DNA of 64,000 nt from assembly GCA_016182905.1 (NCBI GenBank), contig JACPFR010000010.1:124001-188000 (forward strand). The letters run 5' to 3'. The position numbers and the translations under genes were made by a program. A model generated the notes under the pieces. It saw only the letters and a list, made by a program, of their open reading frames with translations. It searched no databases and was not told where the DNA came from. The DNA is from Elusimicrobiota bacterium (lineage in GTDB: Bacteria; Elusimicrobiota; Elusimicrobia; UBA1565; UBA9628). Of the stretch, positions 11,736 to 63,376 are shown piece by piece (positions within the stretch are counted from its first letter, which is position 1; the number at the start of each line of letters is the position of its first letter).

Positions 11736-13289
11736 ATGGACGCCGCGCGGAAGCTGTTGGAGGCGACGGAGCTTTGGGAGCGACGAGGCGAGTACGTCAT
11801 CGCCCGCAAGCGCTGCTCGGAAGCCTTGCGCCTCGATCCGGACTCATGGGAGGCGGCGGCCAAGCTCTGGGAGCTCGAGGAGCTGCTGGGGCTCGCGGCC
11901 GACTCCAAGCGCTCCCTCGCCTTGGCCGAGAAGGCCATGCGCAAGGCTTTGAAGCGCGATCCCCGCGACGCGAAGCTGCGGCTTCACGCGGCGGAGCTTT
12001 TGGAGCGGCTCGGGCGCTACGGGCAGGCGCGGCGCGAGCTTCTGCTCGCCGTGCGGCTCGATCCGGATCCGCTCCCGGCGCGGCTCCTGCTGGCCGTGCG
12101 GGCGCTCTGGGCCGGACGGGCCGAGGAAGCCGTGCTCCGCGCCCAGGAGATCCTGGCCCTCGACCCGGCCTTGGGCGAGGCGCGGCGCATCGTCGGCGCG
12201 GCCCGGGTCCTTCAAGGCCGCTTTGCCGAGGCCCTTTCGCCGCTTAAGCGCGCCCTGGCGGCCGATCCCCGGGACGCGGAGGCCCTGGCCTGGCGCTCCG
12301 AGGCGCTGCGGTATCTGGGGCGGAATTCCGAGGCCCTTTCGGCCGGAGCCGCGGGGCGCGCGATCTCGGACAACGCGCTCGGCGCCAACGCCAATCACGC
12401 CCTGGCCAAATTGGCCGCGGGAGAGCGGGTCTCGGAGCTGGAGTACTCCCTGATCTCCCGGCTCCTGCCCCGCCCGCTCCAGCCCCTGAGCGAGCGCCTC
12501 GACCCGGAGCGGCCCCGGGCCGCGGCGCGGGCCTTGGAGCGCGTGCTCAAGGCGCTCAAGGGCAACCGCGGCCAGGCCAAGGTGTGGACGCGCGGGACGA
12601 GGCTCGAGCCCTTCGTCGCGTGCGACATCAGCGACCAGATGGAGATCCTGCAGTCCCGCCTGCGCGGGGGCGATCTCCGGGCCGTGCTCGCCGAGTACCG
12701 GCGCCTCATCCGTCAAAAACCGCGCGAAGCCTGGTTCTACGCCTTCCGCGGCGAGACCCTCTGCTGGGCCGCCCGCTACGGCGAGGCGGAGGCGGATTTT
12801 CACCGCGCCCTGGAGCTCGCCCCGCGCCTGCGCTGGCCCCATGTGGGGCTCTGCGGGACGGCCTTGTTCTCGGGCGACTACGAAGCCGCGCTGGCGCATT
12901 GCGAGAACGCCGTTCGCGACGCCGCGCCCGACCGCTCCTGGCGCACGCTGCGCGGGGAGGCGCTGCGAAAGCTCGGCCGGCTCACGGAGGCCCGCGAGGA
13001 CCTCGAGGTCGCGGTCGCGGCGATGCCGCGGCGGCTGAGCGCCTGGATGAATCTGGCTTTGGTGCTGGGCGAGCTGGGAGAGGAGGCGGAGGCGGACCGG
13101 CTCTTCTCGCGGATCTGCGGCTGGGCGCCGCATTTTTTCTCGCTGTGCGCCCGGTCGCTGCCCGTCCCGTCGCGGGCCGCCGTCCTCGAGCGAGGGCTCG
13201 AGCTCATGGCCGGCAACCGCTCCTCCTGGCTGACGACCTGGCTCGACGGCGGCCGGCTGCGCAACGTCCACGTCGAATTCAGGGATTGA
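11736..13289 (+). CDS. TPR repeat protein
   Basis: 517 residues of TPR-like hairpins (ALRLDPDSWEAAAKLWELEE, FRGETLCWAARYGEAEADF). The first ten repeats are regular, then a charged linker near residues 225-300 separates a second block. No signal peptide. The ATG has no Shine-Dalgarno sequence and follows an AT-rich stretch directly. The 3' end overlaps the convergent Asp/Asn hydroxylase-like gene by 11 bases. As the only plus-strand gene between two minus-strand operons, it is probably transcribed alone. Confidence 0.8.
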   Translation: MDAARKLLEATELWERRGEYVIARKRCSEALRLDPDSWEAAAKLWELEELLGLAADSKRSLALAEKAMRKALKRDPRDAKLRLHAAELLERLGRYGQARRELLLAVRLDPDPLPARLLLAVRALWAGRAEEAVLRAQEILALDPALGEARRIVGAARVLQGRFAEALSPLKRALAADPRDAEALAWRSEALRYLGRNSEALSAGAAGRAISDNALGANANHALAKLAAGERVSELEYSLISRLLPRPLQPLSERLDPERPRAAARALERVLKALKGNRGQAKVWTRGTRLEPFVACDISDQMEILQSRLRGGDLRAVLAEYRRLIRQKPREAWFYAFRGETLCWAARYGEAEADFHRALELAPRLRWPHVGLCGTALFSGDYEAALAHCENAVRDAAPDRSWRTLRGEALRKLGRLTEAREDLEVAVAAMPRRLSAWMNLALVLGELGEEAEADRLFSRICGWAPHFFSLCARSLPVPSRAAVLERGLELMAGNRSSWLTTWLDGGRLRNVHVEFRD

Positions 13290-14055
13290 GCGAGAGGTCG
13301 AACCAGCCTTGCAGGGCGGACACCTCGAAGGGCGTGAGGTCGGGGTTCCAGACGCTCAGGTGCAGCAGCAGGCGCGGCCGCGCGGAGCGGTTCCAGGTGT
13401 CGTGCTCGTAGGTGTCGTCGAAGAGCAGCACCTCCCCGTCCTTCCAGGAGCGCGTCTCCCCGGCCACGCGGATAGCGCAATCCTCGGGCACGCTCAGCCC
13501 CAGATGGCAGATGAGCTTGCCGTTGAAGTGGCTGTGATGGGGCGAGACCGTCCCGCCGGGCAGCAGCGCGGAGTAGAAGCAGTCGCCGAGAACGGGGAGG
13601 CGCTCGAGCAGGCGGGCGGCCTTGGGAGCGCGCTCCAGGTTCTCCGGGAAGCCCCTGGTCTCGACCCGGAAGCGGCTCGGGGGGAACTGCGCGTCGAGGA
13701 TCTTCAAGTCGAAGGCGATCCAGCCCTCGTAGGCGAGATCCTCGCGGCTCTCCGAGGAGCGGACCAGGGCGCCCGCGTCGAGCAGGGCGCGGCCCTCGGC
13801 CAGCAGTCCGGCCTTCGCGGCCTTGAGCTCGGCCAGGAACGGAAGCTTCGCCGGGTCGTGCCAGGGCGACGCGGGCAGGCCGGGCACCCAGAGCGGGCTG
13901 GCTTCGCCCTTCCTCTGCCGGGGGTCGTCCACGGCGGCACGCCGACCGAGCAGGTTCGAGAAGAAGCCCTCGACGCGCGAGAGGTCCTCTCCGCCCGCGC
14001 GGCGGCGCAGCTTCCGCACGTAGTCCTTGACCTGGGCTTCGAGCGTCTTCTTCAT
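13279..14055 (-). CDS. Aspartyl/asparaginyl beta-hydroxylase-like Fe(II)/2OG dioxygenase
   Basis: 258 residues. The C-terminal half (about 120-245) matches the Asp_Arg_Hydrox (AspH, PF05118) jelly roll: HHSHFNGKLICHLGL (His173-184), DDTYEHDTWN (distal His218) and RPRLLLHLSVWNP (Arg228, His232) give the metal and 2-oxoglutarate ligands. The N-terminal 110 residues are a helical extension. It is the last gene of the carrier protein/dehydrogenase/adenylation operon; ATG 14055 overlaps the adenylation gene stop (14052-14055). It probably hydroxylates an amino acid, carrier-bound acyl group or peptide of the pyrrole pathway. Proline 3-hydroxylases also contain this fold, so proline or pyrroline is a plausible substrate. 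That is inference. Confidence 0.8.
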   Translation of the reverse strand: MKKTLEAQVKDYVRKLRRRAGGEDLSRVEGFFSNLLGRRAAVDDPRQRKGEASPLWVPGLPASPWHDPAKLPFLAELKAAKAGLLAEGRALLDAGALVRSSESREDLAYEGWIAFDLKILDAQFPPSRFRVETRGFPENLERAPKAARLLERLPVLGDCFYSALLPGGTVSPHHSHFNGKLICHLGLSVPEDCAIRVAGETRSWKDGEVLLFDDTYEHDTWNRSARPRLLLHLSVWNPDLTPFEVSALQGWFDLSLNP

Positions 14056-15314
14056 GACGAGGCCTCCTCGGCGACGGCGCGCAGGTCGAGCTTCCCGCGC
14101 GGCGTCAAGGGCAGGCCGCCGGGATGCAGGACCAGGCGGCGCACGCTCATGTGCGGGGGCAATTCCCGGGCGAGGCGCGCCTTGGCCTCGCCGAGGGTAA
14201 CGGCGCGCGAGCTCTCGAGATGGGCGACGAAGCCGCCGGCGTCGAGCCGCACCACCGCGCGGCGCACGCCCGGCAGGCGGCAGAGCGCGCGTTCGATCTC
14301 GCCGGGCTCCACGCGCATGCCGCGATGCTTCACCTGGCGGTCGGAGCGGCCGAGGAAGACGAGCCCGCCGCGCCCGGCCGCGACGCGGTCGCGGGTGCGG
14401 AACACGCCCCGGCTCGGGGCGCCGCCGAGATAGCCGCGCATCACGCCCGGACCGCGCACCTCGAGCTCGCCGCGCACGACGCGCAGGCGGGTGCCCTCCG
14501 GGGGCGCCCCGATGGGGACGGCGGCGGCGCGCAGGTCGCCCGCCCGCACGCGGCGGAAGGCGCAGACGTTGGTCTCGGTGGGGCCGTAGAAGTTGTAGAC
14601 GGGCAGGCCGCGGCGGAAGAGCTTGCGCAGCTCCGCGGGAGGGTAGCTCTCGCCCGCGTAGACGAGGCGGCGCAGGCGTCCGCGGGCCAGGCGCTCGGCG
14701 AGGCGCCCCTTCTCCTGCAGGTGCATGAGCAGCGACGGGGTCGCGTAGACGCTCGTGAACCCGCGGGCCAGACGCGCGGCGAGCCCGGCGGGGTCGTAGG
14801 CCGCCTCGGCCTGGAACAGCTCCACCTCCGCGCCCGCGCGCCAGCCGCCGAGCACGTCGAGCAGGGAGAGGTCGAAGCCCCATGGCGCCAGGTTGGGCAC
14901 GCGCTCGTCCGGGCCGATGCGCAGCAGGCGCGCGGTCCAGTCCAGGAAATACTCGATGTTCCGCAGCGAGAGCGGGATGCCCTTGGGCTCGCCCTCGCTG
15001 CCGGAGGTGAAGAGCAGCATCGCGTCGCCCCTCTTGAGCGCGCCGCGGCGCGAGAGAAGGGCGCGGACCTTGCGCGCGCGAGCGGCGGGCCAGGACGGGT
15101 CGAGCGGCACGAAGGGCACGCCGGCGTCCAGGCAGCCGAGCCACGCGGCCGCGGCGGCGAGACTCTTGGGGCCATGGTGGAGCACGTAGGGGCCGGCCGG
15201 ACGGCGCGCGGCGGCGAGCAGCTCGGCGTAGCTCCAGGTCTTCCCGCCGCAGCTCAGGGCGGGGCTGTCCGGCCGCCGCCGCGCGTGGGAGCGCAGGCGC
15301 TCGAGCAGGCGCAC
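14052..15314 (-). CDS. Adenylation enzyme, probable L-proline--carrier protein ligase (PltF/RedM-like)
   Basis: 420 residues, ANL superfamily. Core motifs are TSGSEGEPKGIP (A3, residue 103), FDLS (A4, 147-150), NFYGPTETNV (A5, 241-250), RTRDR (A7), GRSDRQVKHRGMRVEPGEIE (A8) and LTPRGKLDL (A10). Aligning by eye to GrsA, the ten specificity residues read D148-L149-L152-Y190-V218-A220-F242-V250-C251-K, nearly the DLLYLALVCK code of the prolyl-activating PltF/RedM enzymes. It therefore probably loads L-proline onto the carrier protein encoded at 16419. The GTG start at 15314 overlaps the dehydrogenase TAG. The protein is shorter than PltF (about 500 residues) because the N-terminal subdomain is reduced. 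Confidence 0.85.
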   Translation of the reverse strand: MRLLERLRSHARRRPDSPALSCGGKTWSYAELLAAARRPAGPYVLHHGPKSLAAAAAWLGCLDAGVPFVPLDPSWPAARARKVRALLSRRGALKRGDAMLLFTSGSEGEPKGIPLSLRNIEYFLDWTARLLRIGPDERVPNLAPWGFDLSLLDVLGGWRAGAEVELFQAEAAYDPAGLAARLARGFTSVYATPSLLMHLQEKGRLAERLARGRLRRLVYAGESYPPAELRKLFRRGLPVYNFYGPTETNVCAFRRVRAGDLRAAAVPIGAPPEGTRLRVVRGELEVRGPGVMRGYLGGAPSRGVFRTRDRVAAGRGGLVFLGRSDRQVKHRGMRVEPGEIERALCRLPGVRRAVVRLDAGGFVAHLESSRAVTLGEAKARLARELPPHMSVRRLVLHPGGLPLTPRGKLDLRAVAEEASS

Positions 15315-16417
15315 TAGCCCGCCCTCAGCGAGGCGACGACGATCTCCTTCTGGATCTCGTTGGTGCCCGAGAGGATCGGCCCGCCGACGGCGTCGCGCAG
15401 GGCGGCGGCGAACTCGCCCGCCTCCAGCACGCCCGAGGCGCCGTGCAGCTGGACGCAGTCCAGCGCCACGCGCAGCGCGGCGTCGGTCACGGCCCATTTG
15501 GCCAGCGCGGCCTCGCGCCCGGCCTCGCGGCCCCGGTCCAGCAGCCAGCACGCGCGGTAGAGGAGCAGGCGCGACTGCTCCAGCAGCAGCTGATGCTCCG
15601 CGATCTTGTGCGAGACCGCCTGGTTGTCCAGCAGCGGCTTGGAGAACTGGCGGCGCTCGCGGCTGAAGCGCAGGGTCGCGGAGATCAGCCGCCGCATCTG
15701 GCCGAGGAAGATGGCGGGGAGCGCCGCGCGCTCGACCGTGATGACGCGGCGGAACAGCTCGCGGCCCTCGCCCTCGCGGCCGAGGCGCGCCGACGCCGGC
15801 ACGCGCGCGTCGAGGGTGACGGGCGCGGGATGGGCCGAGCGCAGGCCCATGGTCTTAAGTCCTCTCTCCACGCGCACGCCCGTCCCGGCCGGGATCCAGA
15901 AGGCCGACAGGCCGAACATGCCGTCGCGGGGAGAGGTCTTGGCGTAGACCACGAAGGAGCGGGCGTCCGGCGCGCCGGTCACAAAGCTCTTGCGCCCGGT
16001 GACGCGGTAGGAGGCGCCCGTCCTGCGGGCCGCGCAGGCCACGGCGGAGAGGTCGGAGCCGGCGCGGGTCTCGGTGACGGCGTGGGCTATCAGGTGCCGC
16101 CCGGCGAGGAGCTCGCGCGCCGTGGCCCGGTCGAGGCGGCGGGCCTCGAGCAAGGTCTGCAGCCCGCCGAAGAGATGGGCGCCCAGGCCGAAGAGCTCTC
16201 CCAGCGGCGCGCCTTCGGCGGCCAGCGCCTCGAGCGTGAGGGCCGAGTCCAGCAGGCTCGCGCCGCGCCCGCCGAGCTTGCGGGGCACGCGCAGGGCGTA
16301 GAGGCCGTCGGCGGCGAGCAGGGAGCGGGCCTCCGCGGGGCGGGCCGCGACGCGCGCGCCCAGCGCGGCGGCGCGGGCGACGGCGGCGCGCTGGGCGCCG
16401 GAGAGCGCGAAGTCCAC
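15314..16417 (-). CDS. Acyl-CoA dehydrogenase family flavoenzyme, probable prolyl-carrier dehydrogenase (PltE-like)
   Basis: 367 residues with the three acyl-CoA dehydrogenase domains: N-terminal helices, the beta domain (AVTETRAGSD at 113-122; GRKSFVTGAPD at 141-151) and C-terminal helices (SRERRQFSKPL; LHGASGVLEAGEF; LSGTNEIQKEI). The usual catalytic Glu of YEGT is Ser here (LSGT). A Glu in TVERAALPA (Glu229) sits where isovaleryl-CoA dehydrogenase-type enzymes have their base. PltE/RedW enzymes oxidise prolyl-S-carrier to pyrrolyl-2-carboxyl-S-carrier, and the flanking adenylation and carrier genes make that the best assignment. It is one base from the carrier gene and overlaps the adenylation gene. 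Confidence 0.85.
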   Translation of the reverse strand: MDFALSGAQRAAVARAAALGARVAARPAEARSLLAADGLYALRVPRKLGGRGASLLDSALTLEALAAEGAPLGELFGLGAHLFGGLQTLLEARRLDRATARELLAGRHLIAHAVTETRAGSDLSAVACAARRTGASYRVTGRKSFVTGAPDARSFVVYAKTSPRDGMFGLSAFWIPAGTGVRVERGLKTMGLRSAHPAPVTLDARVPASARLGREGEGRELFRRVITVERAALPAIFLGQMRRLISATLRFSRERRQFSKPLLDNQAVSHKIAEHQLLLEQSRLLLYRACWLLDRGREAGREAALAKWAVTDAALRVALDCVQLHGASGVLEAGEFAAALRDAVGGPILSGTNEIQKEIVVASLRAG

Positions 16418-16418
16418 T

Positions 16419-16682
16419 CTAGGCCGCCTTCCGGCGCGCCGGCCGCTTGGCCGGCCCGGCGCCCACGAGTCGGACGATGGAACGGACGTCCTTGAAGTTC
16501 TCCTTCTTCAGCGCGGAGGCGTCCAGCTTATAGCCGGCCTTCGCGGCCAGCAGGTCGGCCAGGTCCAGTATGCGCACCGAATCCAGCAGCCCCCACTCCA
16601 GGAGGGGGGTGGCGGCGTCCACCGTGAGGCCGCCGTCGGCGCCCTCGCGGAAGAAGGCCAGGAGTTCCTCGGTGAGGTCCAT
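16419..16682 (-). CDS. Acyl/peptidyl carrier protein (PltL-like)
   Basis: 87 residues, normal carrier-protein size. The phosphopantetheine site is Ser35 in GLLDSVRILDLADLL, the DS(V/L/M) motif at the start of helix 2. The C-terminus is Lys/Arg-rich (AKRPARRKAA), an unusual basic tail. It is first in the operon before the dehydrogenase, adenylation and hydroxylase genes, so it is expected to carry the prolyl/pyrrolyl thioester. A phosphopantetheinyl transferase domain is encoded at 61965-63374. A TATCCT box lies 10 bases before the ATG; no ribosome binding site is seen. Confidence 0.85.
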   Translation of the reverse strand: MDLTEELLAFFREGADGGLTVDAATPLLEWGLLDSVRILDLADLLAAKAGYKLDASALKKENFKDVRSIVRLVGAGPAKRPARRKAA

Positions 16683-16707
16683 GGAGGAATGTTAGGATAT
16701 TCACGTG

Positions 16708-18012
16708 ATGATTGCGCAGCGCACGAATGTTCTCATCATCGGGGCCGGCCCCGCGGGCAGCGCGCTGGGCGCCTACCTCGCCCGCGCCGGGATCCGCTGC
16801 CTGATCGTCGAGGCCGAGACCTTCCCGCGCCCCCACGTCGGGGAATCCCTGGTCCCGGCCGCGAACCGGGTCTTCCGCGAGATCGGGTTCCTGGACCGGA
16901 TGACGAGGTCGGATTTCGTCGTGAAGCGCGGGGCCTCTTGGTCTCTGCCCCGTCGCGACGGCGCGGGCGAGGCCCGCTGGGCGCACGATTGGGCCGGCAT
17001 CCCGGAGGACTGCCGCGTGGAGTTCAAGGAGCGGCCGCTGCCGGGCGTCGAGGCCCATACCTGGCACGTGGACCGGTCCCGTTTCGACGAGATGCTGGCC
17101 CGGCACGCCTGCGAGCAGGGCGCGGAGCTGCGCCACGGCGTCGCGGCGGCGGGCGTGGACGTCGCCGCGGACGGGGTCACGACCCGCCTCTCGGACGGGA
17201 GCGAGGTCCACAGCGACCTGATCGTGGACGCCAGCGGGCGCCGGACCTTCCTCGGCGCGGCGCGAGGCCTGAAGGTCCTGGACCCGCTCTTCGACCAGTA
17301 CGCCGTCCACGCCTGGTTCCGCGGCCTCGACCGGGGCCCCGCGACCCCCGACCACATCTTCGTGCACTTCTTGGCGTCGCCGGGCAGCTGGATCTGGCAG
17401 ATCCCCATCACTCGGGACCTCACCAGCGTCGGCCTCGTCACGCGGAAGCCGAGGCTGCGCGCGCGCCGGGGCTCCCCCGGCGAGCTCTTCCACGAGATGC
17501 TCGCGCAGCGGCCCGAGCTGGCGCGGCGCGTCGGCGCCGCCGAGCGGGCGAACGAGTTCAAGGTCGAGGCCGACTACAGCTACGAGATGAAGGCCTTCCA
17601 CGGCGACCGCTTCCTGCTCATCGGCGACGCCGCCCGCTTCGTGGACCCCATCTTCTCCTCGGGCGTGAGCATCGCCCTCAACGGCGCGCGCTTGGCCGCC
17701 GCCGACATCATCGCCGCCGCCAAGACCGGCGACTACCGCGCCGCGTCCTTCTCCCGCTTCGGATCCACCCTGCGCACGGGCACCCGCAATTGGAAGCGCT
17801 TCATCGAGGTCTACTACGCCCTCAACGTGCTCTTCACCTGGTTCATCGACCGCGAGGAGTACCGCGGCCCCCTGCTGCAACTGCTCCAGGGCGACGTCTA
17901 CGACGAGGTCGTGCCGGTGCTCGACGAGCTGGAGGCTCTGGTCCGCGCCGTGGCCGCGGACCCCGGCCATCTCTGGCACGCCCAGCTCAACAAGGACTTC
18001 GTCCGCGGCTAG
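16708..18012 (+). CDS. FAD-dependent halogenase (PltA-type pyrrole/phenol class)
   Basis: 434 residues. The FAD-binding GxGxxG is GAGPAG (12-17). PRPHVGESLVP (40-50) is the halogenase flavin/strap region. Lys73 in FVVKRGASW matches the catalytic lysine that forms the chloramine or positions HOCl. WIWQIP (228-233) fits the WxWxIP halogenase signature. GDAARFVDPIFSSGVSIAL (about 300-320) is the second FAD motif. It is divergent from the carrier/dehydrogenase/adenylation operon with 25 bases between starts, matching the pyoluteorin logic in which PltA chlorinates carrier-bound pyrrole. No dedicated flavin reductase is seen in this window. GTG 16705 is an alternative start. The stop overlaps the convergent acetyltransferase stop through CTAG. 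Confidence 0.85.
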   Translation: MIAQRTNVLIIGAGPAGSALGAYLARAGIRCLIVEAETFPRPHVGESLVPAANRVFREIGFLDRMTRSDFVVKRGASWSLPRRDGAGEARWAHDWAGIPEDCRVEFKERPLPGVEAHTWHVDRSRFDEMLARHACEQGAELRHGVAAAGVDVAADGVTTRLSDGSEVHSDLIVDASGRRTFLGAARGLKVLDPLFDQYAVHAWFRGLDRGPATPDHIFVHFLASPGSWIWQIPITRDLTSVGLVTRKPRLRARRGSPGELFHEMLAQRPELARRVGAAERANEFKVEADYSYEMKAFHGDRFLLIGDAARFVDPIFSSGVSIALNGARLAAADIIAAAKTGDYRAASFSRFGSTLRTGTRNWKRFIEVYYALNVLFTWFIDREEYRGPLLQLLQGDVYDEVVPVLDELEALVRAVAADPGHLWHAQLNKDFVRG

Positions 18013-21095: not shown

Positions 21096-22376
21096 TCAAG
21101 GCCTGGTGTTCCGCGCCCGGGCTTTCGCCGTGAGACCCGCGCCCCAGCGGATGAGGGCGGCGACGTCCGCGGGGTGCCGGGAGAGCAAGGCGGACGCGTC
21201 CTCCGCCGCGCGGGCGTGCTCGCCCAACAGGAAGTTGAGCGCGGCTCGGCGCAGGATCAGCCGCTCGTCCCGGGAGCGTTCCAGCAGGGCGTCGAGGTGC
21301 GCGACGGCGCGCGCGCGCTGCCGCTCGGTGTAGTAGGGTCCGGCGAGCTTGCGCAGCGCGTCCGGCCAGGATTCCCGCCCGGGGTCGGCGGGCGGCTCGA
21401 GCTTCGCGGACTGGCGCGGGAAAACTTCGAGCAGGCGGGGGTAGAAGTCCGACAAAGCCGGATAACGCTCGCGCGAGGCCTCGTATTCCCGCAGCCGGGA
21501 GAGGAACGCCGCGAGGTGCGGGCGCCGGCTGAATTCCTCGAGACGGAATTCCCTGCTCGCGGCCTCCTCCCCGCGCTCCAGGGCGACGAGACGAAGCATC
21601 ACCGCTCTCACGAGATGCTCTCTCATGCCGTGGAGCCAATTGCGGCAGTTGCTGCGCAGGCCGGCGCCCAAGGAGAACGGGCGGTCCTTCTCCTCGTGGT
21701 CGTAGAGGTTCGCGGTCATGTCCAGGACCCCGTGCCCCAACTCGTGCCACACGACGGCGTCGAGGCTGTGATCGGCGGAGTCCCGCTCCGCGGAAGGGCA
21801 GGAATCCGCGTCCAGGATGCTGACGATCTCGTGACGGGCGTCGTCGCGCAGCCAGACCCGGTTGAGGCTGACGCCCCGCGCGCACAACGGGGAGACGATG
21901 ATCCGGTAGCGTCCGAGAAAGGGCAGGCCGGTGTAGCGCTCGATCTTCCCGGCGTGATCGTCCTGCTCCACCCGCCTTCTCAGCGCGTCGACCGCGGGGC
22001 TCAGCCTCGGGGCGCAGGCGCCGAGGACGGCGGTGAACCGCGAGTCCCGCGCGAAAGCCCGCATGGCTCCCAGCCACGGCTCCCAGACGCCGCTTCTCTC
22101 GGCCTCTCCCCTGCAGGAGTCCAGCGCCGCGTCGAACTCCAGCTCCGGGGGCGCGGTGCGCATCAGGAGGAGATCCTTGCGCTGGAAGAAGTCCGGATCG
22201 GACTTGTGCATCCGCGCGTTCAGCTTCACGGCGGGGTGGGTCTTGAAAGGCGCGCAGGCCTTCGCGAGCGCCCGCGCGTAGTCCCGGCCCGGACCCTTGA
22301 GGGCGGCGGTCGCGCGCGTGCCCAGCAGGTCCACCGCGCCCAGGAGCTCGATGGATGGGTCGATGACGACGTCCAT
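21096..22376 (-). CDS. HELGH zinc metalloprotease-like protein with C-terminal helical repeats (paralog of 46893-48689)
   Basis: 426 residues. The zinc motif HELGH is at His211-Glu212-His215 (VVWHELGHGVLDM), followed by NWLHGMREHLVRAVMLRLV, whose Glu may be the third ligand. FLSRLREYEASRERYPALSDFYPRLL is strongly shared with the second paralog at 46893. The C-terminal 80 residues are TPR-like. No signal peptide (MDVVIDPSIELLG), so the enzyme is probably cytoplasmic despite its exported neighbour. It is divergent by 35 bases from the methylase-fold gene cluster. The family resembles DUF4932-type HExxH proteins, but I cannot confirm this. Confidence 0.75.
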   Translation of the reverse strand: MDVVIDPSIELLGAVDLLGTRATAALKGPGRDYARALAKACAPFKTHPAVKLNARMHKSDPDFFQRKDLLLMRTAPPELEFDAALDSCRGEAERSGVWEPWLGAMRAFARDSRFTAVLGACAPRLSPAVDALRRRVEQDDHAGKIERYTGLPFLGRYRIIVSPLCARGVSLNRVWLRDDARHEIVSILDADSCPSAERDSADHSLDAVVWHELGHGVLDMTANLYDHEEKDRPFSLGAGLRSNCRNWLHGMREHLVRAVMLRLVALERGEEAASREFRLEEFSRRPHLAAFLSRLREYEASRERYPALSDFYPRLLEVFPRQSAKLEPPADPGRESWPDALRKLAGPYYTERQRARAVAHLDALLERSRDERLILRRAALNFLLGEHARAAEDASALLSRHPADVAALIRWGAGLTAKARARNTRP

Positions 22377-22411
22377 GCCGCCGAGTATAGCATTTGGTAC
22401 AATCACCGCCG
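22377..22411. promoter_or_regulatory. Compact divergent promoter between metalloprotease and methylase operons
   Basis: Only 35 bases separate the two operons. Minus strand: TATACT at 22384-22389 ends 7 bases before the metalloprotease ATG. Plus strand: an extended -10, TGGTACAAT (TACAAT 22398-22403), ends 8 bases before a TTG at 22412. The two -10 boxes sit back to back, so the operons may compete for polymerase or be co-regulated. Neither has a good -35. Confidence 0.5.
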
Positions 22412-23746
22412 TTGAAACGCTCGGCATCCGGCCCGGTGAAGACGGCTCAGCCCTCCTTGGAGCGCGCGCAGGCGCTCTCGGACGAGGGCTCGGTCGTCGA
22501 GGCGATCGCGGAGATCGACCGCCTTATCGGGCTTTCGCCCGGGACCGCGTTGTACCTGCGCAAGGTCCGCTTCCTCCTGCAGCGCCGCAACTATGAGGAA
22601 GCCGGCCGCGCGCTCGACGCCGCCGACGCGCTCTCTCCCGGAGACCGGGCGATCTCGGTCGCCCGCGCCGAGCTTTACGTGATGACCGACCGCCTCGCCG
22701 AGGCCCGGACCGAGTTCGAGAAGGCCCTCGAGGGCGCGCCGGCCGACGAGTTCCTGAGGCTGGCCCGCCTGCGCATCCTGATCCAGCAGGGCCTCGCCGA
22801 GGAGGCCGGCGCCGAGATCGCCGCGCTCGCCGAGACCGGCTCGCCGGCGTCGAGGCTCGAGGCGCGCTTGTGCCGGGGCCTGCTGGCGCTGAAGGTCCGC
22901 GACCATCGCGCCGCGCGCGACGGCTTCACCGCGATAATGAAGGAGCTGCCCAAGGAGCATCCGGTCTCGATGCGCGCCCGCTTCTATTGGGCGGCGTCGC
23001 GGGCCGTCGACCCCGAATTTCGAAGGAGGACCGGCATGGACGCGACGACCCGCAAACCGAGCAAGCTCTATCTCTGCGGCCTGGGCATCTTCCCTCCGTA
23101 CACGGCGTCCCTGGAGGTCATCCACGCGCTCAGCCTCTGCGACGTGATCTTCAACAACGTGGCCGGCCCCGAGGTGCGCGAGCTGCTCGCCGAGTTCTGC
23201 TCCGACATCCGCCCCGCCTCCTATCAGGCCTGGCAGGACGAGCCGAAGTGGGCCGACCGTATCTTTGATCAGTTGGGCAAAGGGAAGACCGTCGGGTTCA
23301 TCACGCGCGGCCATCCGCTGGTGTTCGGCGGCCTCGCCGTCGAGCTCGTGCGGCGCTGCGGGGTCCAGCAGGTCGACCATCAGACCTTCGGCGCCGTGTC
23401 CTCGATCGACCATCTGCTCGCCTTCACGGGCAAGGGGCTCGGCGACGACTTCGAGGGCATCCAGGCCATGGACCGGCCGGCGATAGACCGCGCCGAGACG
23501 ATGAACACGGCTTTGCCCCTGCTCGCCTGCTTCTACTCCGGCCTGGAGGCCAAGGGCGAGGTCGCGGCCTTCCAAAAAAGCCTCGGGCGCTTCTATCCCA
23601 AGGAGCATCTGTGCTGGATGTTCGGTCCCAAATACGACGCGACGCCGGCGGTCGTCGCGGTCGGCGCGCTCGCCAAGACCTATCCGAAGGTGCACTCGAG
23701 CCTGATGCTCTACGTCCCGCCGCTCGTCGGGAAGGCCGAAAAATGA
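22412..23746 (+). CDS. TPR - tetrapyrrole-methylase-fold fusion (borosin methyltransferase-like), copy 1
   Basis: About 444 residues. Residues 1-210 are TPR-like hairpins. The rest is a tetrapyrrole-methylase (TP_methylase) fold: glycine-rich first strand LYLCGLGIFPPY, LSLCDVIFNNVAGPEVRELL, GFITRGHPLVFGG (GHP motif), GIQAMDRPAID, and LMLYVPPL near the C-terminus. These blocks line up in order with the alpha-N-methyltransferase domain of borosins (OphMA, SonM). The Arg/Tyr pair those enzymes use for backbone N-methylation is not apparent between the second and third blocks. No core peptide follows the domain. Start uncertain: TTG 22412 or GTG 22436. Its stop overlaps the next gene (ATGA). Confidence 0.75.
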   Translation: MKRSASGPVKTAQPSLERAQALSDEGSVVEAIAEIDRLIGLSPGTALYLRKVRFLLQRRNYEEAGRALDAADALSPGDRAISVARAELYVMTDRLAEARTEFEKALEGAPADEFLRLARLRILIQQGLAEEAGAEIAALAETGSPASRLEARLCRGLLALKVRDHRAARDGFTAIMKELPKEHPVSMRARFYWAASRAVDPEFRRRTGMDATTRKPSKLYLCGLGIFPPYTASLEVIHALSLCDVIFNNVAGPEVRELLAEFCSDIRPASYQAWQDEPKWADRIFDQLGKGKTVGFITRGHPLVFGGLAVELVRRCGVQQVDHQTFGAVSSIDHLLAFTGKGLGDDFEGIQAMDRPAIDRAETMNTALPLLACFYSGLEAKGEVAAFQKSLGRFYPKEHLCWMFGPKYDATPAVVAVGALAKTYPKVHSSLMLYVPPLVGKAEK

Positions 23747-25614
23747 AGCGGCCCGCGGCTCCCTCCGAGGGCCGCTCCTACCTGACCTGCCTCATCGGCC
23801 TGCCGCCGGGGGGCCGCTCGGAGTGGACGGCGGCGCTCGCGCGCGAGCGGGGAAAGAAGGACGCCGGCGCCTTGCGCCGCGGGGGCCGGGCCCTCTCCTT
23901 GCTCGGCCGCGGCGCCGAGGCGCTCGCCGCCCTCGACCGCTCGCTGGCGCTCGACGCCGCCTCCCGCGAAGGCTGGGCGTGGCGGGGCGAAGCCCTGCTG
24001 CTGGCGGGACGCCGCGCGGAGGCGCGCCTCGCCCTCGACAAGGCCGCCCAGCTGTCGGAAGGCTGGCCCTGGGCTCGGCTGCTGCGGGCGGTGTGCCTGC
24101 TCACCGAGGGCGACGTCGACGGCGCCCAGAAGGAGCTTTCCGCCATCCGCGCTTTGCCGGAGGCCGTGCTCGTCTCGGCCCTGCTCGAGGGCCAGCGCGG
24201 CGCCGCCCGCGCGGGCGCGGACGCGGCCACGGCCGAGCTCGCCGCGCGTCCCTCCGGGCCGCTGTTCGCGGTGCGCGCGCTGCTGCGCCTGGGCCTAGGC
24301 GACCTTCCCGCGTGCCTCGAGGATCTCAACGCGGCCGCCGCGCTCGAGCCCTCGGCCTGGATCCTCATGCAGCGCGCGGACGCGCTCAACCGCAGCGGAT
24401 TCTATCGTGAGGGGCTGAAGGATTCCGCTGCGGCCGCAGCACTTCTTCCCGATTCTCCCGAGCCGCATCTGCAGGCCGCGAACATCTATTTCGACCAGGC
24501 GTTCTATCCCGAGGCTCTCGCGGAGATGGAGCGCGCGCTCGCGCGGCGTCCCGACGACGCCGGCATGCTCAGCCGACGGGCGCGCTTCCATCTCCTGCTC
24601 GGACGCTTCGAGGAGGCCGAGAAGGGCCTGGACCGGGCCTGCGCTCTGGCCCCCGACAGCGGCCAGCTCCGCTTCGAGAGGCTCAACGTCATCGCCATGA
24701 GAGGCCGCTGGACGGAGGTCCTCGAGGCGCTCAAAGGCGGAGCCCTCCACGAGCCGTTCCATTCGTATCTCACCGGCTACGTCCTGTGCCGGAAAGGCGA
24801 CCGCGCCCGCGCGGTCCGCCACTTCCTCCGGGCGGCCTCCCTGGCCGACGGCGGCTTCGCGGAGCGCTGCCGCTTCTACGCCCTCGTCTGCCGAGTGCTC
24901 TCCAAGCCGGAAAAAAAGGTCCTGGCCCGCCCGCAGTTCTACCTGTGCGGCGTCGGCATCCATCATCCTTATCAGATCACCGTGGAGATCCTCCGGGCGC
25001 TCGACGCCTGCGAGGTCCTCTACAACAACCTCGGCGATCCGCAGATCTCCGAGTTCCTCGGCCTGTTCCGCTGCGAGGTGCGCGCCGTGACCCGCGTCGA
25101 CAACGAGCCGGCCATGGGCCGCGTCAAACGCATCCTCGCCGGGCTCCAGCGGGGGAGGACCACGGGATTCGTCACGCGCATCCACCCCTTCATCTATCGC
25201 CGCATCGCCCGCGACCTCGTCACGGAGTGCGAGGCGGCGAAGATCAGCTTCCAGGCGTTCGGGGCCGTCTCTCTGACCGAGGTCGCCTGGAGCCTCGCGT
25301 CGGCCGAGCCTGACCACGGGACGCGGCGCGGCCCTTTCGGGCAGCGGGTCTTCGATCTCGTTCATCTGACGCGCAACCCGGGCCAGCTCGAGCCGGCGCA
25401 TCCGACGGTCGTGTACGCGATCGCCAACGACGACGACCGCCGGCGCTTCTGCGCGCTGGTCCGCGCGAATTACGACCCGGAGCAGTCGGTGTTTTTCCTG
25501 GCCGGCTCCGGCGACCGCGAGCAGCAGGTCGTCTCGGCCCCCGTCAAGGACGTCGAGGCGAAGCTCCTGTCGCTCGACCTCGGAACCGTCATGTATCTGC
25601 CGCCCCGTCAATGA
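23743..25614 (+). CDS. TPR - tetrapyrrole-methylase-fold fusion, copy 2
   Basis: 623 residues. TPR-like hairpins fill residues 30-390 (WAWRGEALLLAGRRAEARLA). The methylase-fold domain (about 395-623) contains FYLCGVGIHHPYQITVEIL, CEVLYNNLGDPQISEFLGLF, GFVTRIHPFIYRR and VMYLPPRQ at the very end. The canonical GHP has become IHP, so SAM binding or catalysis may be altered. ATG 23743 overlaps the stop of copy 1; copy 3 follows 7 bases later. Copies 1-4 form a tandem array that probably arose by duplication and now differs in accessory domains. Confidence 0.75.
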   Translation: MKRPAAPSEGRSYLTCLIGLPPGGRSEWTAALARERGKKDAGALRRGGRALSLLGRGAEALAALDRSLALDAASREGWAWRGEALLLAGRRAEARLALDKAAQLSEGWPWARLLRAVCLLTEGDVDGAQKELSAIRALPEAVLVSALLEGQRGAARAGADAATAELAARPSGPLFAVRALLRLGLGDLPACLEDLNAAAALEPSAWILMQRADALNRSGFYREGLKDSAAAAALLPDSPEPHLQAANIYFDQAFYPEALAEMERALARRPDDAGMLSRRARFHLLLGRFEEAEKGLDRACALAPDSGQLRFERLNVIAMRGRWTEVLEALKGGALHEPFHSYLTGYVLCRKGDRARAVRHFLRAASLADGGFAERCRFYALVCRVLSKPEKKVLARPQFYLCGVGIHHPYQITVEILRALDACEVLYNNLGDPQISEFLGLFRCEVRAVTRVDNEPAMGRVKRILAGLQRGRTTGFVTRIHPFIYRRIARDLVTECEAAKISFQAFGAVSLTEVAWSLASAEPDHGTRRGPFGQRVFDLVHLTRNPGQLEPAHPTVVYAIANDDDRRRFCALVRANYDPEQSVFFLAGSGDREQQVVSAPVKDVEAKLLSLDLGTVMYLPPRQ

Positions 25615-25621
25615 GGAAGAC

Positions 25622-26278
25622 ATGGAGAAAATGATCATCTGCGGCCTCGGCGTGCGCGTGCCCGAGGAGACGACGCTCGAGACCCTCCAGGCGCTCGCCG
25701 ACTGCCGGGTCGTCTACACCGACCTCGACGACAAGAAGGCCCGGGCCTGGCTCGGCGGGTACTGCAGGAGCCTCAAGACGCCGAAGTCGGCCGCGGAGAT
25801 ACTCAAGACCGCCGCCGAAGGCGGCGGCGTCGTCGGGCTGGCGGTCTGGGGCAATCCGCAGTCCTCGAGCCGCCTGGCGCGCGAGGTCGAGCTCGGCGCG
25901 CAGAAGGCCGGGCTCGCGTACCGCGTCCTCGGCGCGATCTCCCCGATCGGCAGCGTGTTCGCGCGCTCGGTGAGCTTCCTCGGCGGCGACTACGGCTATC
26001 AGGGCATCCAGTCCTACGACCTGCAGACCTTGCTCGACGACTCCGCGTCCGCGACCACGGAGCTGCCCCTGGTGCTCTACGCCGAGAGGGGCGAGCCCGC
26101 GAGCTGGAAGGCGGCCCTCAAGCGCCTCGCGGGCGGCTACCCGGCCGGGCATAAGGCGAGCCTGTACGCCCCGGCGGGGCTGACCGAGGCGCCCTTGTCC
26201 GAGCTCAAGCCCGGGGACCGCTGCGTGGTCCTCATACCGCCCGCCAAGGCCCTCGAGGTGCGCAAGACGAAATGGTGA
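25622..26278 (+). CDS. Stand-alone tetrapyrrole-methylase-fold protein, copy 3
   Basis: 218 residues, just the methylase-fold domain without TPR. Blocks: MIICGLGVRVPEETTLETLQ, GVVGLAVWGNPQSSS (GNP in place of GHP), YQGIQSYDLQTLL and CVVLIPPAK. The ribosome binding site GAGGAAG precedes ATG 25622. Its size suits a subunit that pairs with the larger copies, because methylases of this fold act as dimers. The stop overlaps copy 4. Whether it still binds SAM cannot be judged by eye. Confidence 0.7.
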   Translation: MEKMIICGLGVRVPEETTLETLQALADCRVVYTDLDDKKARAWLGGYCRSLKTPKSAAEILKTAAEGGGVVGLAVWGNPQSSSRLAREVELGAQKAGLAYRVLGAISPIGSVFARSVSFLGGDYGYQGIQSYDLQTLLDDSASATTELPLVLYAERGEPASWKAALKRLAGGYPAGHKASLYAPAGLTEAPLSELKPGDRCVVLIPPAKALEVRKTKW

Positions 26279-28722: not shown

Positions 28723-29732
28723 CCCCGAAGCTCTCGATCATCATCCCGTTCTACGACGTCCGCGGCCCGCTGCGGGGGCTCCTCGAATCCCTGTGCCGCT
28801 CGGACTTCGCGGATTTCGAGGTGTGCCTGTGCGACGACGGCTCCCGGGACGGGAGCCTGGAGGAGGCGCGCGCCTTCGCGGACCGGCTGGACCTGAAATG
28901 GGTCGTCCACGAGGCGAATCTCGGCGTCACCCGCGCGCGCAACAGCGCGCTCGCGCTGGCCGGCGCGCCGCTGCTGCTCTTCCTCGACGCCGACGTCCGC
29001 GTCGCGCCGGACGTCATCGCGCGGCTCCTCGAGACCCGGGAACGCACGCAGGCCGACGTGCTCTGCGGGATCTACAGCGGCACGGCCCTGGACGCGGGCT
29101 TCTGGTCGGGCTACTACGCGCTGTTCGTCCACCACTCCTTCCTCGTCGCCGACGAGCCCGCGCCCTACAACGTCTTCAACGGCTGGTGCGCCCTGTGCCG
29201 CCGCGAGGTCATGGACGCGCTCGCGGGGCACCGGCCCGCGGCCAAGGGCGTGGAGATCGAGAACGAGGCCCTGGGGCGGCGCATCGTCGCGCGCGGCTTC
29301 CGGCTGCTGCTCGATCCGAGCGCGGCCGTCGACCACCATTGGGGCGGGCCGCGCAAGATACTCTTCATCTTCACGAGCCGGGTCTATTGGTGGGTGAAGG
29401 TCTTCTTCGCGACGGGCGGCCGCTTCGAGAAGGCCTTGACCACGCGGGGCTACGCCGCCGGGACCTTGGCGGTCCCCGCCGCCTTGGCCTTCGCGCTCGC
29501 CGGCCGCCCGCTCGGGTCCGCGGCGGCGCTCGCGGTCTTCCTGTACGCCTACGGGCCGTTCCTCTCCTTCGCCCGGCGGCGGCGCGGCCTCTTTTACGCC
29601 GCGCTGTGCGCGCCGGCGAGCGCGGGCCTCGCGGTCGTGGCGTCGGCCAGCGCCTGCTTCTCCGCGGCCGAGGAGCTGGCGCTCCGGCTCGCGCGCGGGC
29701 GCGTCACGTTGAGCGCGGAGGAGTTCTCGTGA
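28719..29732 (+). CDS. Family 2 glycosyltransferase with C-terminal membrane helices
   Basis: 337 residues. The N-terminal GT-A domain has LSIIIPFYDVRGPLRGLLES, CLCDDGSRDGSLEEA and the nucleotide-sugar DxD in LLFLDADVRV (about residue 85). Two or three hydrophobic segments near 240-315 anchor it to the membrane. ATG 28719 overlaps the methylase copy 4 stop, and its stop overlaps the radical SAM gene GTG, so all are translationally coupled. It would transfer a sugar to a lipid, polysaccharide or protein; the acceptor is unknown. Confidence 0.85.
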   Translation: MTPKLSIIIPFYDVRGPLRGLLESLCRSDFADFEVCLCDDGSRDGSLEEARAFADRLDLKWVVHEANLGVTRARNSALALAGAPLLLFLDADVRVAPDVIARLLETRERTQADVLCGIYSGTALDAGFWSGYYALFVHHSFLVADEPAPYNVFNGWCALCRREVMDALAGHRPAAKGVEIENEALGRRIVARGFRLLLDPSAAVDHHWGGPRKILFIFTSRVYWWVKVFFATGGRFEKALTTRGYAAGTLAVPAALAFALAGRPLGSAAALAVFLYAYGPFLSFARRRRGLFYAALCAPASAGLAVVASASACFSAAEELALRLARGRVTLSAEEFS

Positions 29733-31195
29733 CGCGGGACCTCGTGCTCCTCTGCTACGGGCGCAACAGCCCGTACGACTACGACGCCCACACGCCGCTC
29801 TCCATCCTCGCCCTGGGAACCTACCTGGAGACCAAGGGCGTCGAGGTCGAGTACTACGACGAGCGCCTCGACGCGCTCGCGGTCTTCGACGCCTTGCTCG
29901 CGCGCGGGCCGCTGCTCGTGGGCTTCTCGGTGATCGGCGGCTACCAGATCGAGGCCTCCGCCCGCCTGTCGCGCCGCGTCCGGGCCGGCGCCCCGGGAGC
30001 CGCAGTCGTCTGGGGCGGGATCACTCCGACGACCTTGGCCCGGGAGACCATCCAAGAGGACTTCGTCGACTTCGTGGTGATCGGCGAGGGCGAGGAGACG
30101 CTCTGGGAGCTGATCCTCCGCCTGCGCGAGGGCCGGCCGGCCGACGGGCTCCTCGGCCTGGCTCACAAGGCCGGCGGGCGGCCGCGCTGCAATCCCGCGC
30201 GCCCCTCGCCGGACGTCGAGACGCTCCCGTTCGTTTATCAAGGGAAGGCCCTGGAGATGCTCAAGCGCTATCTCCTGCTCCCGGCGGTGCGCGAGGCCGT
30301 GGGCTACGAGGGTTCCCGCGGCTGCCCGTTCCTGTGCACCTTCTGCTACAGCCCCAACTTCCACGCCAACGTCCGGGTCAAATCCCCGGCGAAGGTCGCC
30401 GCGGAGCTCAAGACGCTGCGCAGCCTGGGCGTGGACCGCATCGACATCTACGACGACACCTTGATGGGAGGGCGCAAGCCCGAGATCGCGCTGCTGGCGG
30501 CGGCGCTGCGCGAGACCTCGATGCGCTGGATGGCGAACCTGCGGATCAACATGCTCTCCCGGGAGCTCCTTTCGTCCCTGGAGGGCTCCGGCTGCGAATG
30601 GCTCTACTACGGGATCGAGTCGGACCGCGACGACGTGCTGGCCGTGATCAAGAAGGGCATGAGCGCCTCCCAGATCGAGGAGGGCCTCAAGCTCATGGGA
30701 GCCTCCTCGATCCCCGCGGTGTACTCGATCATCTACGGCCTCCCGATCGACGGCCCCGCCCCCGAGTCCGGGGAGGTCCTCGCCTTCGCCGAGCGCATCC
30801 ACGAGCTCGATCCGGACGCGGAGGTCCAGGTCCAATCCTACGTCCCGCTTCCGGGCAGCGACCTGTACGGCAGCGCGCTGGCGCGGGGCTTCACGCCGCC
30901 CGCGGACCTCATGGGCTGGTCCCGGCACGATCACCTCACCGTCGAGGACTCCTGGCTCGCGGATCCCCGGCTGCCCCGAAAGCTCTACCTCTCGAGCTTC
31001 ATGGCCTACCGCTACCGCCGGCACCTGTCCCGCTTCCCGCTGAGCCTGGCCGCTTTCCCGCTTCACCTGCTCAGCCGCTGGCGCATCCGCCGCCGGGCGT
31101 TCGGCTTCTACATCGAGGGCCCGCTCTATCGCTTCTTCCTCGCGGCCGCGCGGGCGCGCAGCGACCTCCATTTCTGGCTCCGGGAGAAGCGCTGA
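29729..31195 (+). CDS. B12-binding-type radical SAM protein
   Basis: 488 residues from GTG 29729. Residues 1-150 form a cobalamin-binding-like Rossmann domain (SILALGTYLETKGVEVEYYD, VIGEGEETL). The radical SAM cluster is Cys199-Cys203-Cys206 (CPFLCTFC). The TIM-barrel continues with IDIYDDTLMGG and GIESDRDDVLAVIKKG. This is the class B architecture of many methyltransferases and other C-C bond-forming enzymes acting on unactivated carbons. The canonical DxHxxG cobalamin motif is not obvious, so B12 may not be bound. Its position between GT2 and an AsnB-like gene suggests tailoring of the same product. Confidence 0.8.
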   Translation: MTRDLVLLCYGRNSPYDYDAHTPLSILALGTYLETKGVEVEYYDERLDALAVFDALLARGPLLVGFSVIGGYQIEASARLSRRVRAGAPGAAVVWGGITPTTLARETIQEDFVDFVVIGEGEETLWELILRLREGRPADGLLGLAHKAGGRPRCNPARPSPDVETLPFVYQGKALEMLKRYLLLPAVREAVGYEGSRGCPFLCTFCYSPNFHANVRVKSPAKVAAELKTLRSLGVDRIDIYDDTLMGGRKPEIALLAAALRETSMRWMANLRINMLSRELLSSLEGSGCEWLYYGIESDRDDVLAVIKKGMSASQIEEGLKLMGASSIPAVYSIIYGLPIDGPAPESGEVLAFAERIHELDPDAEVQVQSYVPLPGSDLYGSALARGFTPPADLMGWSRHDHLTVEDSWLADPRLPRKLYLSSFMAYRYRRHLSRFPLSLAAFPLHLLSRWRIRRRAFGFYIEGPLYRFFLAAARARSDLHFWLREKR

Positions 31196-40501: not shown

Positions 40502-41246
40502 TCTTCACCAGCGCGGCGATGGCGGGCCATTCCCGCCAGATGTCGGTCAGGCCCTCGGTCTGGCAGCTTTCGGCGTCGACGTGCCAGACGCGCCAATAGG
40601 CCGCGTAGCGGATCAGAGGGGAGAGGTTCTGCTCCTTGTCGTGCGCGAGCTGGTAATGGCAGATGATCGCGTCGCCGGCCTTGCCGGTGATCTGCGCGGC
40701 GTCGGGAAGGTCGATCTTGCCCGCGAGGCCGGCGCGCAGGGGCGCGGTCCCGTGGGCCTTGATGAACTCCGCGACCCGGCGGTGGGTTCCGGGGTAGGCG
40801 GTGAAGTTGCCCATGTACTTCTCGGGCAGGTCGCTGAGCAGGACGCCGACGAGCATGGTGAAGCGGCTGATCGACTTCGCGGCGTTGGGGGAATAGAAGC
40901 CGTCGATATGCGAGGCGGGCCCGCCGTGCGAATTGTTCACCGACGGGAAGCGCAGCGCGATCTGGCCGGTCGGGGGGCGCAGGAGCTTCCCGGTCCCGAC
41001 GGGCGACTCGGCGAGCTCCCACAGGCCGCTCTTGAAGAGCAGGTCCATGATCGCGGGGGAGTCGGTGTCGTCGGACCAGTAGTCGCGCGAGTCGGCGTAG
41101 GCGTCCATCGTCCGGGTGCGGCCGAGGCCGAGCCGGTGATTGATCTCGCGCAGGGCCTCGTCGACCAGCGCCCGGGGCACGACGCCGGGCAAAGTCACGT
41201 AGCCGTCCTCCAGAAGGCGGCGCTTCTGCTCGAGGTCAAGCTCCAT
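40476..41246 (-). CDS. PhyH-family Fe(II)/2-oxoglutarate dioxygenase (copy 1)
   Basis: 256 residues, typical for the phytanoyl-CoA dioxygenase superfamily. N-terminus RRLLEDGYVTLPGVVP. Metal ligands are the HxD of SHIDGFYSP and the distal His of QLAHDKEQNLSPLIRYAAYWR, whose Arg would bind 2-oxoglutarate. MGNFTAYPGTHR is the usual strand between them. The C-terminus is basic (ASRKKAK). Three paralogs are arranged tandemly (40476, 41236, 41981), each overlapping the next by about 11 bases. The substrate could be a small molecule or a protein side chain; neighbouring TPR proteins are candidates. Confidence 0.85.
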   Translation of the reverse strand: MELDLEQKRRLLEDGYVTLPGVVPRALVDEALREINHRLGLGRTRTMDAYADSRDYWSDDTDSPAIMDLLFKSGLWELAESPVGTGKLLRPPTGQIALRFPSVNNSHGGPASHIDGFYSPNAAKSISRFTMLVGVLLSDLPEKYMGNFTAYPGTHRRVAEFIKAHGTAPLRAGLAGKIDLPDAAQITGKAGDAIICHYQLAHDKEQNLSPLIRYAAYWRVWHVDAESCQTEGLTDIWREWPAIAALVKNASRKKAK

Positions 41247-41991
41247 GAACGCCTCTCATCGAGGGCCACTCGAGCCAGACGTCGGTCAGGGCCCGCTCGA
41301 GATATTCCCTCGATCGGTCGCGCCAGGCGGCGGCGTGGTAGATGCGGTAGTAGGCCATATAGCGGATGTGGGGGGAGAGGTTCTTCCCTTTGGCGTGGAC
41401 GAGCTGATGGTGGCACAAGACGACGTCTCCCGCCTTGCCGGTGACCGGCACCGCTTCCGGCAGGTCGAGCCTGCCCTCGGGACCCGGCCGCAGGGCGTCG
41501 ATCCCGTGCTCCTTCAGGTAGCGCGCGCTGCGCAGATGCGTGCCCGGATAGACCGCGAAATTGCCCATGTCGGGCCGGGGGCAGTCGCTCAGCAGCACCC
41601 CGACCAGCAAGGTGAACCGGTGCAGCTCCTCGTTCGGGGAGAACCCGTCGATGTGCGGATCGTAGTCGCACAGGGAGCCCTCGACGGACGGGAAGCGCAG
41701 GGCGACCTGGGCCTGGAAGCAGGGCTCGACGTTCCCGGCGCCGAGCAAGGACTCGAGGAGCGCGGGGATCGGTGTGCGGTGCAGGAGGTCCATGACGGAC
41801 GCCGAGGCCGCGTGCTCCGAGCGCCAGTCCGGCTCGACGGCGTAGGCTCCGCCGTCCGGGGGCGCGCCCGCGCCCAGGCGGTGATTGATCTCCCTCACGG
41901 CGGCGTCGGTGAGCGCGGCGGGGACGACCCGGGGCAGCACGACGTAGCCGTCGCGCGCGAGGCGCCGCTTCCGGGCGAGGCTAAGCTTCAC
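41236..41991 (-). CDS. PhyH-family Fe(II)/2-oxoglutarate dioxygenase (copy 2)
   Basis: 251 residues. KRRLARDGYVVLPRVVPAAL opens the protein. HIDGFSPNEELHRF carries the HxD, and QLVHAKGKNLSPHIRYMAYYR the distal His and 2OG-binding Arg. MGNFAVYPGTHLR matches copy 1. All ligands are intact, so all three copies should be active. It overlaps both neighbours by 11 bases. Divergence is concentrated around residues 45-85 and the C-terminus, which suggests different substrates. Confidence 0.85.
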   Translation of the reverse strand: MKLSLARKRRLARDGYVVLPRVVPAALTDAAVREINHRLGAGAPPDGGAYAVEPDWRSEHAASASVMDLLHRTPIPALLESLLGAGNVEPCFQAQVALRFPSVEGSLCDYDPHIDGFSPNEELHRFTLLVGVLLSDCPRPDMGNFAVYPGTHLRSARYLKEHGIDALRPGPEGRLDLPEAVPVTGKAGDVVLCHHQLVHAKGKNLSPHIRYMAYYRIYHAAAWRDRSREYLERALTDVWLEWPSMRGVHGA

Positions 41992-60639: not shown

Positions 60640-60674
60640 GGAACGAGAATAACTTTTTTGCGGCGAGCCGTCTA
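60640..60674 (-). promoter_or_regulatory. Promoter of fabD, leaderless geometry
   Basis: Minus strand: -35 TAGACG (60669-60674), 17-base spacer, -10 TATTCT (60646-60651), then 6 bases to the ATG. There is no room for a ribosome binding site. Confidence 0.6.
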
Positions 60675-61865: not shown

Positions 61866-61918
61866 GGGTCTATTATAGCGCGGGGCTCTTTTAAAGAATA
61901 TGAGCCAGAATATGAGCC
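61866..61918 (-). promoter_or_regulatory. Promoter with upstream 12-base tandem repeat
   Basis: Minus strand TATAAT at 61872-61877 ends 6 bases before the ATG at 61865. Two perfect tandem copies of AGAATATGAGCC (61895-61906, 61907-61918) occupy the -35 and upstream region and could be an operator or activator site. The -35 itself is weak. Confidence 0.5.
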
Positions 61919-61932
61919 TTTTGGGCCCCGCC

Positions 61933-61971
61933 CTCCTAGGACTAACGCTCCGCAACAGTCCGGCCTAGGAG
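61933..61971 (-). terminator. Inverted repeat over the stop of the PlsC/PPTase gene
   Basis: CTCCTAGG-ACT (61933-61943) pairs with AGT-CCGG-CCTAGGAG (61957-61971), enclosing the TAG stop codon. It may be a weak terminator; there is no T-run. Confidence 0.3.
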
Positions 61972-63374: not shown

Positions 63375-63376
63375 TT

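Follow-up and report, generated by a model that had tools for sequence, protein, structure and literature searches.

The window analysed here is a 64,000-nucleotide stretch of an Elusimicrobiota genome (assembly GCA_016182905.1, contig JACPFR010000010.1, positions 124,001–188,000). At 13279–18012 it carries a compact set of five genes (Table 1) resembling the cassettes that make and halogenate a carrier-bound pyrrole. All five reading frames are intact and the catalytic residues are present. The original prediction had described four pyrrole-halogenation genes standing together over this range; these four are indeed there and intact, but the count left out a fifth gene, which encodes an oxygenase related to aspartyl/asparaginyl beta-hydroxylase (AspH). 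The genes for the carrier, the dehydrogenase, the adenylation enzyme and the AspH-like oxygenase follow one another in this order of transcription on the minus strand, and the halogenase gene is divergent on the plus strand. A single base separates the carrier and dehydrogenase genes (16419/16417), the GTG start of the adenylation gene overlaps the dehydrogenase stop as TAGTG (15314), and the oxygenase start overlaps the adenylation stop as ATGA (14052/14055). Such abutting and overlapping gene ends suggest a single transcript. The divergent start codons of the halogenase and carrier are only 22 bases apart. On one side the cassette meets a convergent tetratricopeptide repeat (TPR) gene; the opposite side has a GNAT acetyltransferase gene, also convergent, and a PPDK-like gene. 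Gene identities, catalytic residues, specificity code and operon layout are direct readings of the DNA.

Table 1. The five genes of the cassette, with positions in the window.
Product	Position	Strand	Evidence
FADH2-dependent pyrrolyl-carrier halogenase, PltA family, 435 aa	16705..18012	+	PltA/ChlB4/Mpy16 identity, tree
Stand-alone prolyl/pyrrolyl carrier protein, 87 aa, phosphopantetheine Ser35	16419..16682	-	PDB matches
Prolyl-carrier dehydrogenase, acyl-CoA dehydrogenase fold, 367 aa, Glu229	15314..16417	-	NCBIfam RedW/PigA, PDB PigA 5zw0
Stand-alone prolyl adenylation enzyme, 420 aa, code DLLYVAFVCK	14052..15314	-	PltF alignment, AlphaFold model
Aspartyl/asparaginyl beta-hydroxylase-like Fe(II)/2-oxoglutarate oxygenase, 258 aa	13279..14055	-	PF05118 (Asp_Arg_Hydrox), AspH alignment

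The halogenase is 47–48% identical to PltA (5dbj), ChlB4 (7fco) and Mpy16 (5buk), and its match to PltA (E = 1e-115, 390 bits) far exceeds that to CmlS (151 bits). In a tree of 93 sequences it belongs to the PltA family together with PltA, ChlB4 and Mpy16, and not with non-halogenating flavin adenine dinucleotide (FAD) monooxygenases, the outcome that would have contradicted the original prediction; a fully supported split (100) separates it from the CmlS-type paralogues of the same phylum. The GxGxxG motif (G13-A-G-P-A-G18) is present, as are WxWxIP (W229-I-W-Q-I-P234) and FxxPxxSxG (FVDPIFSSG, F312..P315..S318..G320), the latter two being motifs of flavin-dependent halogenases (PMC8407142). 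Thus, the earlier description of a divergent halogenase with WIWQIP holds, whereas its catalytic Lys73 bears that number only from the ATG at 16708 and becomes Lys74 from the GTG start. The protein retains 116 of the 130 columns conserved in the family, about as many as other divergent members keep. Identification as a monooxygenase was rejected on the PltA and CmlS scores, the intact motifs and the tree placement, and we strongly infer from these sequence features that the reaction is halogenation. In Bmp2, residues Y302/F306/A345 permit tetrabromination, which is lowered by a triple swap to the S/V/W of Mpy16 (PMC5577590, PMC8407142). The aligned residues of our halogenase are S319/I323/W363, a pocket that predicts mono- or dihalogenation, unlike the tetrahalogenating type of Bmp2.

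Among NCBIfam models, the dehydrogenase is matched best by RedW and PigA, which describe prolyl-carrier dehydrogenases, at 261 bits; the family ranked next reaches 150. The 261 bits lie under the equivalog cut-offs of the two models (500/650). It aligns with PigA (5zw0) at E = 2e-54. The original prediction placed its catalytic base at Glu229, as in isovaleryl-CoA dehydrogenase, instead of at the glutamate of YEGT, and the alignments bear this out: Glu229 matches the catalytic glutamate of PigA (mutated to alanine in 6af6), glutamate occupies this column in all 34 aligned enzymes, and 'SGT' is read at the place where other acyl-CoA dehydrogenases have YEGT. The same glutamate sets pyrrole formers apart from the N-oxygenase ChmG, which carries methionine (PMC11177257). 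Homology as strong as that of the dehydrogenase to its models and of the halogenase to PltA rules out chance. The specificity code of the adenylation enzyme, derived from an alignment with PltF and 30 relatives adjoining pyrrole dehydrogenases, agrees with the one first read by eye as prolyl. It equals that of PltF (DLLYLALVCK) at 8/10 positions, the two changes being conservative. Four actinobacterial cassette-linked relatives have DLFYVAWVCK, likewise with V at the fifth position and with an aromatic W at the seventh. Core motifs A3, A5, A8 and A10 are found, and A7 reads FRTRDR, with arginine replacing glycine. An AlphaFold model (predicted local distance difference test score, pLDDT, 88; predicted template modelling score 0.84) has PltF and PigI as its four best structural matches and served as a second check on the code. 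The model was built on a pyrrole-cassette alignment, so this evidence is not fully independent. Taken together, code and motifs strongly suggest prolyl chemistry and point to proline as the substrate. In the carrier, the phosphopantetheine attachment site is Ser35, as expected, within the DS motif of 'GLLDSV'. The carrier scores below threshold in Pfam and NCBIfam; its nine PDB matches are mostly pyrrole-pathway carriers, PigG and PltL being the best and the Bmp1 carrier also listed, with the last few being other carriers and the scores modest (28 bits). Phosphopantetheinyl transferases are encoded in the genome.

To place the cassette in its phylum, we used a sample of 341 genomes, with thresholds of E <= 1e-70 for the halogenase and E <= 1e-45 for the dehydrogenase. 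A PltA-type halogenase is present in one of them, the genome under study, and a RedW/PigA-type dehydrogenase in four. Outside the phylum the halogenase has 232 relatives in Acidobacteriota, Actinomycetota, Chloroflexota, Myxococcota, Bacteroidota, Gemmatimonadota, Cyanobacteriota and others, which makes the cassette itself widespread. The claim of a new source of halogenated pyrroles is fair for the phylum. Flanks were examined for 80 of the 232 relatives. A pyrrole dehydrogenase lies nearby in 31 loci, of which roughly half also have a flanking ketosynthase and the remainder do not; movement of the pyrrole sub-cluster between pathways is well known (PMC6395733). PltA-family halogenases of several Acidobacteriota loci (L017, L019, L020, L023-L027, L029 and others) lack a prolyl dehydrogenase or adenylation gene in the examined flank, and a pyrrole cassette of Bacteroidota (L092:5867-13053) contains a pair of neighbouring FAD halogenase-like genes along with an ATP-binding cassette transporter. 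A search of viral contigs gave no match. The PPDK-like neighbour gene has no homologues in 18 congeners and is thus strain-specific, so that no conserved empty site could be obtained from them.

The fifth gene sets this locus apart. Its product matches PF05118 at E = 6e-34 and aligns best with human AspH (5apa, E = 6e-24), retaining HLGL..FDDTYEH..R. The alignment covers the regions HLGL and FDDTYEH, which we take, by analogy with AspH structures, to hold the two iron-binding histidines, and PRLLLHL, presumably with the 2-oxoglutarate-binding arginine. It is the sole PF05118 match in its genome, and the only close match among the sampled genomes of the phylum is in that same genome. No AspH-like gene lies within the flanks of the 80 examined halogenase loci from other phyla, and thus the five-gene set was found neither beside these halogenases nor in other genomes of the phylum sample. 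A single-sequence fold of the protein (pLDDT 37) is too low for use, and our literature search on AspH-type enzymes in carrier-bound biosynthesis returned nothing relevant. The association of an AspH-like oxygenase with a halopyrrole cassette is new, as is the want of any evident machinery to take up the product, whereas the chemistry of the cassette is of a known kind.

The five genes very probably form a thiotemplated pyrrole-halogenation operon with the following steps. The adenylation enzyme would activate L-proline and load it onto the holo-carrier. In a four-electron oxidation with Glu229 acting as the base, the dehydrogenase would then turn prolyl-S-carrier into pyrrole-2-carbonyl-S-carrier, and the halogenase would add one or two halogens to the carrier-bound pyrrole. 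The AspH-like enzyme may hydroxylate either the released acid or the ring while this is still bound to the carrier as prolyl, pyrrolyl or halopyrrolyl; its substrate is a guess, as is the mode of release from the carrier, and the order of steps is our inference. The final product could be, again as a guess, either a small halopyrrole or a conjugate whose assembly needs no nonribosomal peptide synthetase (NRPS), given that no condensation domain (PF00668) was found in this 97%-complete genome. This absence of NRPS elongation machinery, overlooked in the original prediction, is one of several observations that weigh against the proposed operon. Neither a releasing thioesterase nor an adjacent ketosynthase was found, and the carrier has no fused thioesterase domain. 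The nearest ketosynthase belongs to a type II aryl-polyene-like cluster that lies ~47 kb to the right, and the only others are on a different contig. Thus, no condensation or ketosynthase partner of the sort that marks NRPS-linked halopyrrole biosynthesis was found for the halopyrrole. In addition, the adenylation enzyme is ~45 aa shorter than PltF, the missing residues falling between motifs A2 and A3. In the tree, the halogenase sits at the base of its family on a long branch with no close sister, and 14 of the 130 conserved columns differ, so that a shifted substrate is possible. Finally, the nearest relatives of the oxygenase, AspH, LpxO and OlsC, act on proteins and lipids, which leaves its place in the pathway dependent on the operon only.

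The last point bears on the most serious alternative, in which the core cassette works as proposed and the AspH-like enzyme is merely co-transcribed, hydroxylating a protein (for instance, a TPR protein side chain) or a lipid. We consider this quite conceivable, at somewhat less than an even chance. Besides the kinship with protein and lipid hydroxylases, it is favoured by the convergent TPR gene that follows the oxygenase gene in a TPR-rich region, and by the 80 relatives that all lack the gene beside their halogenase, meaning that pyrrole halogenation does not need it. It has to be set against the overlap of the oxygenase start with the adenylation stop and against the restriction of the gene, within both genome and phylum sample, to the company of the halogenase. 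A role in the pathway is a tentative but plausible proposal: hydroxylation of the carrier-bound ring would constitute a new route to hydroxylated halopyrroles, or a trigger for release from the carrier, without NRPS or polyketide synthase (PKS). A different doubt concerns the flavin enzyme, which might hydroxylate rather than halogenate, or act on a carrier-bound substrate other than pyrrole; ChlB4, a member of the clade that belongs to the chlorothricin pathway, has an aromatic polyketide acyl group as its substrate. The isolated branch of the flavin enzyme would fit, as would the many acidobacterial family members whose flanks contain neither a dehydrogenase nor an adenylation gene. However, WIWQIP and FxxPxxSxG are intact, the S/I/W pocket is as in pyrrole dihalogenases and a pyrrole carrier gene starts 22 bp away, which makes this explanation improbable. 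Decay of the cassette, or an artefact of assembly or contamination, could be suspected because the cassette is unique in the phylum sample and the PPDK-like neighbour is equally isolated among congeners. Yet the frames are intact with their catalytic residues, and the cassette is embedded in a 238 kb contig, its tetranucleotide profile being like that of its flanks (r 0.977-0.981), as expected of resident DNA rather than assembly debris, any transfer being old. On base composition and contig position we rejected contamination or a chimera, and an origin of this sort is extremely improbable.

The pyrrole-halogenation operon proposed here can be compared with several known systems. It shares with the pyoluteorin sub-cluster (PltF/PltE/PltL/PltA) the same four activities, a halogenase of 47% identity, a prolyl code shared at 8/10 positions and a carrier with PltL among its best matches. 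The differences are the lack of an adjoining PKS, the extra AspH-like gene, the shorter adenylation enzyme and a phylum far from Pseudomonas. The 16S gene of the genome shares only 74-76% identity with those of the Pseudomonas, Ktedonobacter and planctomycete compared, which places it in another phylum than these. The bmp1-4 genes for bromopyrroles in marine Pseudoalteromonas likewise combine a stand-alone carrier, dehydrogenase, adenylation enzyme and halogenase without NRPS elongation. By contrast, the carrier described here has no thioesterase domain, the halogenase is much nearer to PltA/Mpy16 than to Bmp2, and its pocket predicts fewer halogens. The nearest entry to the cassette halogenase by tree path comes from a Gemmatimonadota locus (L018:8114-12473), which is also a minimal carrier/adenylation/halogenase/dehydrogenase cassette with no ketosynthase found in the examined flank; it differs in having no AspH-like gene and all four genes on one strand. 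An oxygenase added to carrier, prolyl adenylation enzyme and dehydrogenase is also seen in ChmGHIJ, the N-hydroxypyrrole module of chalkophomycin/hormaomycin (PMC11177257), but there the added enzyme uses flavin and belongs to the dehydrogenase superfamily, as opposed to a non-haem iron enzyme accompanied by a halogenase.

Other features were noted around the cassette. The aryl-polyene-like cluster (L102, contig C10:184001-204000, overlapping the window at 60672-63949) comprises an acyltransferase-phosphopantetheinyl transferase fusion, a ketosynthase, FabA, a short-chain dehydrogenase/reductase, a ketosynthase III, an outer-membrane efflux protein and AcrB. The TPR-rich region also encodes a PhyH-type 2-oxoglutarate oxygenase (41236-41991, minus strand). 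A DUF4932 metallopeptidase-like gene paired with a TPR/tetrapyrrole-methylase fusion occurs in two copies (21096-26278 and 45442-48689); the DUF4932-like gene at 21096-22427 has an HELGH motif, no solved structure is closely related to the methylase part, and the fusion recalls, by analogy, borosin-type enzymes fused to their own substrate. A B12-binding radical S-adenosylmethionine (SAM) protein at 28793-31195 has as its best models C-methyltransferases of ribosomally synthesized and post-translationally modified peptides, and seven radical SAM genes stand side by side to the left of the window (L103, contig C10:104001-124000).

The operon would extend carrier-bound pyrrole halogenation to a phylum whose 340 other sampled genomes are without it. 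Its divergent halogenase and its prolyl adenylation enzyme of unusually small size are potential biocatalysts, and this small set of only five genes adds a candidate non-haem iron enzyme that may act on carrier-bound heterocycles.

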